DNA of 64,000 nt from Sideroxydans sp. CL21 (GTDB lineage Bacteria > Pseudomonadota > Gammaproteobacteria > Burkholderiales > Gallionellaceae), in contig NZ_LR699166.1 of NCBI RefSeq assembly GCF_902459525.1, positions 1,996,501-2,060,500 of the forward strand. Reading direction: 5' to 3'. Shown piece by piece: positions 30,935 to 33,403 of the stretch. How positions within the stretch are numbered: the stretch's first letter is position 1; each line of letters starts with the position of its first letter. The position numbers and the translations under genes are program-made. The notes beneath the pieces were generated by a model. It ran no database searches and was not told the DNA's origin. It saw only the letters and a program-made list of their open reading frames with translations.

Positions 30935-30974
30935 ATCCAATGCGATCTGCCAGCCAGACAAGGTGAAACAACTG

Positions 30975-31234
30975 AAGGGGACAGATTTCTAAACCATATT
31001 GTTCCAACGCCTGCGCGATCGTGAGGCGGTCACCGATGTCCAGTTGCAAGAGTTGTCCGGAACACGCGGCAATATCACGACTGCAGCGCTGCTGGCTGCC
31101 GGCATACCGCCAGAGCGTAAGCAGATCGCTGCTCCGGAAAAAGTGGAAGCCAAGGAACTTGATGTGCCATTGAAACTTGATCTCGGCACAACTTCCAAGT
31201 CGGCTATTCCCGCACCCAAATTATCCAGCATCTA
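30975..31234 (+). pseudogene. Remnant of a DUF748-like protein, C-terminal end only
   Basis: A 78-codon frame (30999-31234) has no ATG and no ribosome binding site and is preceded by an in-frame TAA. Its sequence (LRDREAVTDVQLQELSGTRG, then LAAGIPPERKQIAAPEKVEAK) looks like the tail of DUF748/AsmA-like proteins, where the residues around AALLAAGIP..R form the OmpA-like end. Just before it is GAAGGGGACAGATTTCT, a phrase often found in REP-type repeats. It is probably the stump of a gene lost by rearrangement. Confidence 0.5.
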
Positions 31235-31453
31235 GAATAGGATTTTCATCACGGTTCGACATAACCAAACCACTTGGCAACCTTCTGGTTGCTTTGCGGG
31301 ACGGCCAGTAGTGCCAGCTAGCTGCAAACACAATTGCTTGCCTTGCCTCAAGCAACTCATTTATTTCATGTGCCGAATAGTGCGATGTCAAGTTTCTTGT
31401 CGAAATTGTTGATGTATTGGCCGATATCGGAAGCTGAGAGTTCGATAGGCAAG
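31235..31453. other. Intergenic stretch downstream of candidate small RNA
   Basis: Minus-strand frames here contain protein-like phrases (LPIELSASDIGQYINNFDKK to a stop; INELLEARQAIVF in another frame) but no start or ribosome binding site. They may be decayed coding sequence. No clear feature on the plus strand. Confidence 0.35.
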
Positions 31454-31490
31454 AAAAAAATATGCCCCTGAACCTCACGGAACAGGGGCA
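31454..31490 (-). terminator. Rho-independent terminator of candidate small RNA
   Basis: On the minus strand TGCCCCTG pairs with CAGGGGCA (31490-31463) around a 12-base loop and is followed within two bases by a run of seven T. This is a strong intrinsic terminator, though no protein gene precedes it on that strand. Confidence 0.8.
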
Positions 31491-31547
31491 AATGTCTTAA
31501 CAAAGGGGGAGAGTTAAGACGGCACGTTCAGGGTTAGGACGTGCCAT
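31454..31547 (-). ncRNA. Candidate trans-acting small RNA, about 94 nt
   Basis: Three consecutive hairpins on the minus strand: GGCACGT/ACGTGCC (31545-31521), GTCTTAAC/GTTAAGAC (31520-31494), and a terminator stem (31490-31463) with a T-run. The second loop is TCTCCCCCTTT, complementary to strong Shine-Dalgarno sequences. A sigma-70 promoter is placed just right upstream (31555-31583). No ORF fits. It lies about 380 bases upstream of and divergent to glrK. I know of no named family that matches; antisense targeting of ribosome binding sites is inference. Confidence 0.65.
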
Positions 31548-31554
31548 GCCTATT

Positions 31555-31583
31555 AGAATATTATTAAACGCTTAAATAGTCAA
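31555..31583 (-). promoter_or_regulatory. Sigma-70 promoter of candidate small RNA
   Basis: TTGACT at 31583-31578, exactly 17 bases, then TATTCT at 31560-31555 on the minus strand. The -35 box matches at five of six bases, the -10 box at four of six. Predicted transcription start is near 31547. Confidence 0.6.
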
Positions 31584-31924
31584 CATGACATTCTATGGAA
31601 ACGGTCAGCGAGTCGGTCAAGAAAGGGGCCAAACCGCTTCCCCGGATCGATTCCGATTATTTTCAATCTGGGCAGGCAATCCACATATTCGGCCAGATGT
31701 TTGCCGCATGGGTGAATAATTTCCCCATCTTATCGGCGCTCGCTCATCCGTAATGTGCATAGCATGCAATAGATCAAATGTCGTTAAAGCCCGACAGTGA
31801 TGCAAATTCACTTGCTGCTTCACCGAGCCGATTATATAGTCACCAACAATCCTGCTTTTATATCTCCCTGCCAAAAATATGGCGTGTTTTCTCTGCGGTT
31901 ATCCAGGCCACGACACGATGCACG
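31584..31924. other. Upstream region of glrK
   Basis: About 340 bases. A possible sigma-54 element CGGCCA-N5-TTGCC at 31690-31705 has the right GG-N10-GC spacing but poor flanks. The glrK frame stays open back to 31778 without a good ribosome binding site. Confidence 0.3.
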
Positions 31925-33403
31925 ATGAGCAATAACTTTGTGGCGACTCTGAAAAAAAAATTATCAGGACTGCCCCCGAAATCTTTCGCCGGGTTAATTC
32001 TTGTCGGCCTGTTGCTTGTTGCCCTGCCCTTGATACTGCCGCTCATATACAGCACGGCATCGATCAGCCAACTTTCAAAACAAAGCAGGCAAGCCGTCTA
32101 TCAGGCAGAGCAAATCGCACATTTCAGCCGCATACTGGTCGATCAGGCTGCAGCGATGGAACGCAGCGTCAGGTTGTCGCTGATTTTGGCAGACAAATCT
32201 TTGCTTAAGGGGTATTACCAGGGCCATGGAAAGTTCCGGGAGATCCTGCAGAATCTCTCGACACTCCCTCTTACGGACAAGCAGCATCAGCTTGTAAGCA
32301 TCATGGATACATCCGAGTCAGCAATTTATTCCAGGGTGCAGAAAATTCATCTTCCACGAAAAAAGGCGGGGATACGGAATATCGATTTCACCCCACTGAT
32401 GGATTCTACGCAGGAGTTTCTGATCCACGGGGATGCCCCAGTCGAGCATGAAGTGGAGGCGATGCAGGAAATGGCCGGGCAGGCAAACAAAATCACATAC
32501 TGGTTGCTGATTGGCCTGGTGCCATTAGCCCTGTTGCTGGCTTTTGGATTTTCCATACTGATCACAAGGCCTATACGGCAAATTGACGATGCGATCAGGG
32601 CAATGGGAAATGGCGAACTATCGAATACCATCAAAATCGACGGCCCCCAGGATCTGCAGCAACTTGGGGATAGGCTGAACTGGATGCGCCTGCGCCTGCT
32701 TGAGATCGAGGAGCAAAAATCAACGTTCCTTCAGCATATTTCGCACGAACTCAAGACCCCGCTCACCTCGATCCGCGAAGGAGCAAATCTTCTCTCGGAA
32801 GGCATAGCCGGCAAGCTCACCGCCAAACAAAATGAAATTGCAAGAATACTTTTTGCCAACAGTATCCAATTACAGAAACGAATTGAAGACCTGTTAAACT
32901 ACAGCGCGTTGCAGGCTGGGAAAGCCGCCCTCCACATACAGAGAGTGGCATTGAGAATGGTTCTGGAATCGGTACTGCACGACCAATATCTGGCAATCAC
33001 AAATAAATCGCTGCAAATCGAACTCCTGTGTCCTGATTTAATGCTTGAATGTGACGAACAAAAAGTCAGGACTATTGTGGACAATCTTTTGTCCAATGCA
33101 ATCAAATATTCCCCTCAAGGCGGGCTGGTCAAAATTCATGCAGGCGTTATCGATAGCAGTGTCAGGCTGGAAGTTCAGGATTCCGGCCCGGGTATAGACC
33201 CTATGGACAGAGAAAAGATATTTGATGCGTTCTATCAGGGACGCAAGGCACCTCAAGGACATATCAGAGGTACCGGGCTTGGCTTGTCCATCGCCCGCGA
33301 ATATGTGCTGGCGCATGGAGGTTCAATCGAATTGCTGGAGATTCATCAAGGCACATGCTTCCGCATCACCCTTCCGCTGAATCGCGCCACAGCTACGCTA
33401 TGA
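31925..33403 (+). CDS. glrK: Sensor histidine kinase GlrK/QseE-like
   Basis: 492 residues from ATG at 31925, chosen because it begins with a polar stretch followed by TM1 (about 20-45). A periplasmic domain with helices, TM2 about 205-227, HAMP, HisKA with QHISHELKTPLTSIREGANLL, and HATPase with DSGPGIDP and GTGLGLSIAREYV follow. This and the next two genes match the glrK-qseG-glrR order, a sigma-54-linked envelope system. Its stop overlaps the lipoprotein start. Confidence 0.87.
   Translation: MSNNFVATLKKKLSGLPPKSFAGLILVGLLLVALPLILPLIYSTASISQLSKQSRQAVYQAEQIAHFSRILVDQAAAMERSVRLSLILADKSLLKGYYQGHGKFREILQNLSTLPLTDKQHQLVSIMDTSESAIYSRVQKIHLPRKKAGIRNIDFTPLMDSTQEFLIHGDAPVEHEVEAMQEMAGQANKITYWLLIGLVPLALLLAFGFSILITRPIRQIDDAIRAMGNGELSNTIKIDGPQDLQQLGDRLNWMRLRLLEIEEQKSTFLQHISHELKTPLTSIREGANLLSEGIAGKLTAKQNEIARILFANSIQLQKRIEDLLNYSALQAGKAALHIQRVALRMVLESVLHDQYLAITNKSLQIELLCPDLMLECDEQKVRTIVDNLLSNAIKYSPQGGLVKIHAGVIDSSVRLEVQDSGPGIDPMDREKIFDAFYQGRKAPQGHIRGTGLGLSIAREYVLAHGGSIELLEIHQGTCFRITLPLNRATATL

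Follow-up and report, generated by a model that had tools for sequence, protein, structure and literature searches.

A predicted small RNA of Sideroxydans sp. CL21 is a diverged accessory paralog of anti-hemB

Background

In a 64-kb stretch of the Sideroxydans sp. CL21 genome (64,000 nucleotides; hereinafter, the window), a sequence-only reading had pointed to a small RNA gene on the minus strand at 31454-31583, held to be unrecognised and located beside an operon denoted glrK-qseG-glrR. Is this RNA indeed without known relatives, and does its place beside the kinase gene tell anything about its function?

Results and discussion

Predicted anatomy of the gene

The elements of the predicted gene are the following:

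31555..31583, minus strand: promoter, TTGACT at 31583-31578, 17-nt spacer, TATTCT at 31560-31555 (pattern match)
31454..31547, minus strand: predicted small RNA of ~94 nt, accessory paralog of anti-hemB (match to the covariance model R1, described below, and fold)
31521..31545, minus strand: stem-loop 1, GGCACGU/ACGUGCC, 7 bp, loop CCUAACCCUGA (fold, alignment)
31494..31520, minus strand: stem-loop 2, GUCUUAAC/GUUAAGAC, 8 bp, with the C-rich loop UCUCCCCCUUU as candidate seed (fold, sister comparison, alignment)
31463..31490, minus strand: stem-loop 3, the terminator hairpin, UGCCCCUG/CAGGGGCA, 8 bp, loop UUCCGUGAGGUU (fold, alignment)
31454..31460, minus strand: T7 run, intrinsic terminator (sequence)

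The promoter (TTGACT-17-TATTCT), the stems of 7, 8 and 8 bp and the T7 run had all been described in the sequence-only reading, and all were found. As DNA letters, the stems read GGCACGT/ACGTGCC, GTCTTAAC/GTTAAGAC and TGCCCCTG/CAGGGGCA; the start near 31547 is deduced from the -10 hexamer. The RNA folds with a minimum free energy of -41.4 kcal/mol, whereas its shuffles average -18.6 (sd 2.96; z -7.70); none of 200 shuffles equals this value, which is far beyond chance expectation. The promoter pattern taken alone is at chance level (2 matches in 2 kb versus 2.2 expected). The hairpin is absent from the list of a terminator scan that covers loops of 3-8 nt, the loop here being 12 nt long. A coding reading was rejected: an 85-aa minus-strand open reading frame overlaps the terminator, and Pfam offers nothing for it up to E 0.1. 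The predicted anatomy looks like that of a small regulatory RNA gene.

Relationship to the anti-hemB family

A scan of the whole 64-kb window at the Rfam gathering scores found no family over its cut-off. A permissive scan of 401 bases, by contrast, matched the RNA end to end to RF02837 (anti-hemB) with 22.3 bits and E 0.0048, below the family's gathering score of 49.5 bits, together with one further, unrelated match at chance level (E 5.8). The search of Rfam that had been proposed as a check thus came out negative at the cut-off and positive beneath it. The same genome carries a copy linked to hemB (G000:C1:3701705-3701817) that scores 60.3 bits with RF02837, above the gathering score, and is the only one reported when this genome is searched with the family model at E <= 0.001, the window copy being passed over.

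With the window sequence as a BLAST query, 30 loci were retrieved from 25 of 100 genomes, the source genome counted. Rfam was run on 20 of these loci: RF02837 matched 19 at E < 0.001, five of them over the cut-off, and the remaining one (L020) had no match. An alignment was then built from 25 relatives, leaving out the window copy (L001), its sister (L002) and three loci whose rows had shown long insertions or gaps in an earlier alignment (L017, L025, L030). In the alignment of 25, 95.0% of the cells pair in a four-helix structure, and 17 of the 28 base pairs have changed on both sides, a number as high being reached in none of 500 shuffles; when the structure is slid along the alignment as a control, pairing drops to 35-43%. 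Covariation in relatives, which the earlier reading had set as a check, is accordingly there. The covariance model R1, built from these 25 relatives and so without the window copy and its sister, matches the window at 31456-31568 with 86.6 bits and E 7.6e-20, a held-out test that is not fully independent because the relatives were retrieved with the window sequence. On the opposite strand there is a weak match (18.4 bits, E 0.0058), as is usual for hairpins. In the source genome, R1 finds two copies, that in the window and the hemB-linked one.

The held-out match indicates that the window RNA shares common ancestry and the three-hairpin structure with RF02837; being below the gathering score, it is not classed as a member of that family but as a diverged paralog. 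It is not located beside hemB, its neighbors encoding a redoxin-like protein and a histidine kinase, and in loop 1 the family motif CUCCUCCCUGA is missing, the loop being CCUAACCCUGA, diverged from the form UUCUCCUCCCUGA seen in most relatives. CCUCC is found within loop 1 in 56 of 58 hemB-linked and 21 of 25 accessory copies.

The named representative of the family (Burkholderia RNA 7; ncS04 of Burkholderia cenocepacia) has the same three-hairpin layout and terminator, and loop 1 of the window copy still ends in CCCUGA; the window copy differs in that it lacks the CUCCUCC core, lies away from hemB, carries its C-rich loop in stem-loop 2 and has the promoter TTGACT/TATTCT, which is not of the sigma-E type. 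According to the publications on ncS04, this RNA is 105 nt long, lies between BCAL0264 and BCAL0265, is expressed, being among the RNAs demonstrated by Northern blot, and is reported to bind Hfq (PMC5688073, PMC4603805). In the qPCR series described there, its level was unchanged across seven conditions (PMC5688073), so that any function is putative even in the parent RNA.

The RNA that had been called unrecognised is therefore, judging by its homology, a diverged accessory paralog of a catalogued family, anti-hemB, with a second copy in its own genome.

Two kinds of copy

Matches to R1 are present in 84 of the 100 genomes, the source genome included. In 150 genomes drawn from the order, RF02837 is over its cut-off in 105 and matches at E <= 0.001 in 120; in 14 control genomes there were weak matches in three and none over the cut-off. 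Some genomes have multiple R1 matches (four in G029, four in G037 and six in G058); two in G037 are weak and lie 80 bases apart on one contig (C74), and two in G029, with equal scores, are on separate contigs, one of them at the start of its contig. Named genomes, scanned by pattern, yielded 71 loci; R1 matched 66 of these, the exceptions being L032, L033, L035, L036 and L076. The labels of these loci are Gallionella, Sideroxydans, Sideroxyarcus, Nitrotoga, Ferriphaselus and Ferrigenium and, more broadly, Gallionellaceae, Gallionellales, Nitrosomonadales, Betaproteobacteria, Gammaproteobacteria and Proteobacteria, with one Methylophilaceae.

The second copy of the source genome (L132:7706-7818, minus strand) lies between a GTPase gene (MMR_HSR1), presumably engB-like, and hemB (porphobilinogen synthase, 509 bits), from which it is divergent. 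Among the 66 named loci, hemB is in the stretch in 45, only the GTPase gene in one (L059) and neither in 20. The copies without hemB, which we call accessory, are found in many different contexts, and only small groups of them have common neighbors.

For a tree, 61 of 87 copies were hand-picked (40 hemB-linked, 21 accessory); four of the 26 left aside (L034, L042, L045, L065) are second records, and the other 22 were aligned later. In this alignment (60 distinct rows), 95.1% of the cells pair and 17 of the 28 pairs change on both sides. FastTree placed 20 of the 21 accessory copies in one clade with a support of 0.993, nested among the hemB-linked copies if the tree is rooted on other families. 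We take this as one likely duplication and not as proof of it because the alignment has 143 columns, many of them gapped. Four of the 25 accessory copies known in all (L048, L073, L093, L101) fit the layout of the clade poorly and were outside the tree.

A copy away from hemB in L051 (1738-1858) falls just outside the accessory clade and has C-rich strings in both loops 2 and 3; it is possibly an intermediate. The copies in L048 (2664-2770) and L073 (3544-3642), also away from hemB, have the neighbor families F16 and F17 in common, show the short loop 2 typical of hemB-linked copies and possibly represent a second, separate relocation. Copies in L003, L004, L005 and L008 lie near matches to the cspA thermoregulator; we rejected this element as a general neighbor, the matches being sub-threshold (51-71 bits, cut-off 78) and confined to 4 of the 20 loci scanned.

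The place beside glrK

The earlier reading had drawn attention to the adjacent operon, the gene names glrK and qseG being its own. NCBIfam identified a GlrR-like regulator near the RNA (NF011695, 611.4 bits, below the cut-off of 763); among the matches listed, the other two operon genes were not named glrK or qseG. Divergent orientation from the kinase gene, with the glrR-like gene nearby, is what might be seen if the RNA were GlmY-like, belonged functionally to the glrK-qseG-glrR operon, was under the control of GlrR and acted on glmS. Yet there was no Rfam match to GlmY or GlmZ at the gathering score in the window, and none in 31300-31700 with E relaxed to 10, in line with the earlier reading, which had claimed no such homology; the homology is instead to anti-hemB, and the promoter, compared by eye with the sigma-54 promoter consensus, is not of the sigma-54 type.

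The position is not conserved either. When a 15.5-kb stretch of the sister genome (G029) was compared by blastn, the window matched only at 31429-31639, which is the RNA with its promoter, and, apart from it, at 31804-32305, which is part of the kinase gene; in the sister, the kinase gene is 7.1 kb from the RNA and in a different relative orientation. No match to the kinase part of the window segment 30500-33000 was found by blastn in the other loci (L031-L151 without L132), many of these stretches being short on one side. A tblastn search with a length filter listed a single kinase match (L035, 27%), at a locus without the RNA; since this filter concealed the genuine match in L133, blastn is the better test here. 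A GlmY-like RNA is thus highly improbable, and the location beside glrK looks accidental from these comparisons.

On the other side, L041 has the 347-aa and redoxin genes that neighbor the window copy, next to a copy whose orientation differs, so the redoxin side may be partly common to relatives. About 500 bases (30935-31450) separate the redoxin-like gene from the RNA; they contain a 78-aa frame (30999-31235) that by eye resembles a gene remnant but is without a counterpart in Pfam (E up to 0.1). Because the sister genome differs there, this segment may mark a rearrangement point.

Promoters and the C-rich loop

The two kinds of copy also differ in promoter. The pattern GAACY-N15-18-TCW, which follows the sigma-E promoter consensus, precedes the RNA in 55 of the 57 loci that were counted as hemB-linked, against an expectation of 0.46 from single-base shuffles; these 57 comprise 55 loci with hemB in the stretch plus L059 and L150 with the GTPase gene only. 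L134, where the contig comes to an end, was excluded. The pattern is missing from L063, in which GGAACT is still present, and from L150. In the source genome, the hemB-linked copy has GGAACT-N16-GTCTGA (L132, minus strand), of this type. Among the 25 accessory loci, nine have the sigma-E-type pattern, six, that of the window included, have TTGACN-N17-TANN[CA]T (0.016 expected) and ten have neither. TTGACW-N17-TATTCT is found also in the accessory loci L133, L135, L136, L139 and L140; L137 and L138, counted under neither pattern, have by eye TTGACA and TATTCT with an 18-nt spacer. A palindromic operator in the spacer of the accessory promoters, suspected by eye, found no support (mean shuffle p 0.62, 20 promoters).

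The source genome encodes RpoE (317.6 bits, cut-off 236.15). About 120 bases before its rpoE (L162) there is a GAACTT..GTCAA, which could reflect autoregulation, but approximately one such string is expected by chance in a locus of this size.

The second difference is in the loops, which were counted in 83 distinct copies, 58 treated as hemB-linked and 25 accessory. CCC..TT is in the terminator loop of 46 of the 58 hemB-linked copies versus 4 of the 25 accessory ones, and in loop 2 of 3 versus 20, respectively; a loop 2 of 9 nt or more is seen in 4 hemB-linked versus 23 accessory copies. The accessory clade, accordingly, has its second C-rich loop in the middle hairpin and not in the terminator hairpin. 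The window RNA follows this layout: its terminator loop UUCCGUGAGGUU lacks the C-richness seen there in most hemB-linked copies. The rule has exceptions: in several hemB-linked copies (e.g., L043, L062, L070, L079) the terminator loop is not C-rich, and in L048 and L073, which lie away from hemB, loop 2 is short and the terminator loop CU-rich.

Loop 2 of the window RNA contains the string CUCCCCCUUU, which recurs in the terminator loop of the copy beside hemB in this genome. This is compatible with a decoy or sponge, the C-rich loop competing with the hemB-linked RNA for mRNAs common to both or for Hfq, which we nevertheless regard as quite improbable.

Selection or decay

Comparison with the sister genome bears on whether the window copy, an accessory paralog of anti-hemB, is maintained. 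The promoter is identical in the two genomes (29/29), and stem-loop 2 (26/27) and the linker with stem-loop 3 and the T run (38/39) nearly so; identity is 23/27 in stem-loop 1 and 5/9 in the leader, and the flanks have 41/56 upstream and 22/25 downstream. Neither the window copy nor its sister (L133) retains the upstream mini-hairpin or, in loop 1, the CUCCUCC core, and the common branch of these two is long (0.37 in the 61-copy tree). These losses could be decay, and, together with the long branch, would fit a duplicate that has lost its first seed loop and its upstream hairpin and is turning into a pseudogene. Conservation of the promoter and of stem-loops 2 and 3 (64/66), against only 41/56 upstream, argues otherwise, as do the two differences in the stem of stem-loop 1, both of which retain pairing. 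On balance, a decaying duplicate seems unlikely.

Proposed origin and mode of action

The scenario that we consider probable is that a hemB-linked anti-hemB RNA gene was duplicated within Gallionellaceae and the duplicate was then moved and rewired, yielding a trans-acting regulator of the Hfq type. The duplicate would have been relocated away from hemB, acquired a promoter of another type, come to carry its C-rich loop in the middle hairpin and not in that of the terminator, lost the mini-hairpin upstream and diverged in the first loop. Homology, structure under selection, non-conserved position, promoter type, place of the C-rich loop and the losses are the parts that sequence supports. Transcription would depend on the housekeeping sigma factor and end at the T7 terminator, the RNA would bind Hfq (the gene for which is present in this genome, 97.7 bits) through its U tail, and the loop UCUCCCCCUUU would pair with purine-rich ribosome-binding sites of mRNAs in trans and block their translation.

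Targets were sought in the source genome as near-complements of the loops with up to two mismatches, the reversed pattern serving as control. Loop 1 gave three sites, the gene itself included, versus three for the control, and loop 2 gave eight, again with the gene itself, versus two. Inspection of the two other loop-1 sites and the seven other loop-2 sites in this genome found no convincing target; among the latter, a site with two mismatches (L170) has its end 4 nt ahead of an ATG.

The C-rich middle loop was correctly likened, in the earlier reading, to RNAs known to block ribosome-binding sites, several of which invite comparison. The Neisseria sibling RNAs NgncR_162/163 (NmsR) likewise have three stem-loops and resemble each other; they obstruct ribosome-binding sites by pairing with them through the unpaired part of SL2 (PMC9973317). 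These siblings are adjacent in the genome, unlike the dispersed anti-hemB copies, and the likeness carries no claim of homology. The Rhizobiales RNAs SmelA075/SmelA099 have C-rich CCUCCUCCC hairpin loops described as anti-Shine-Dalgarno (PMC3927594), comparable with the candidate seed loop of the window RNA. They are alphaproteobacterial and are compared here by loop type, not homology. We take them to be of the 'cuckoo' type. The Betaproteobacteria toxic small RNA family (RF02278; double-hairpin RNAs) is described as occurring in several dispersed copies, with CU-rich unpaired segments for which masking of ribosome-binding sites is predicted (PMC5688073). It has two hairpins versus three in the window RNA; among the 20 loci scanned it had a single match, below threshold (27.5 bits, cut-off 50), and in the window none over the cut-off.

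Conclusions

The family itself is already known from Rfam (RF02837), and what looks new are the variant features of its copies. In the literature searched, there was no report of sigma-E-type promoters at the hemB-linked copies, of a dispersed accessory clade in Gallionellaceae or of the change of hairpin by the C-rich loop, nor any mention of RF02837, or of Gallionellaceae together with a small RNA. Since 55 of the 57 loci counted as hemB-linked carry a sigma-E-type promoter, anti-hemB, a barely studied but widespread small RNA (105 of 150 genomes drawn from the order have it above the cut-off), may be an envelope-stress RNA. Tentatively, and with somewhat less than even confidence, we propose that anti-hemB is an order-wide, sigma-E-dependent (envelope stress) Hfq small RNA, of a type with enteric counterparts in MicA and RybB, and that its Gallionellaceae duplicate was rewired by promoter replacement and by a shift of the anti-Shine-Dalgarno seed out of the loop of the terminator hairpin and into the middle one. 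If this is true, the rewired copy would be a regulator independent of envelope stress. What had been an isolated prediction can now be tested as an instance of a small RNA that was duplicated and rewired.
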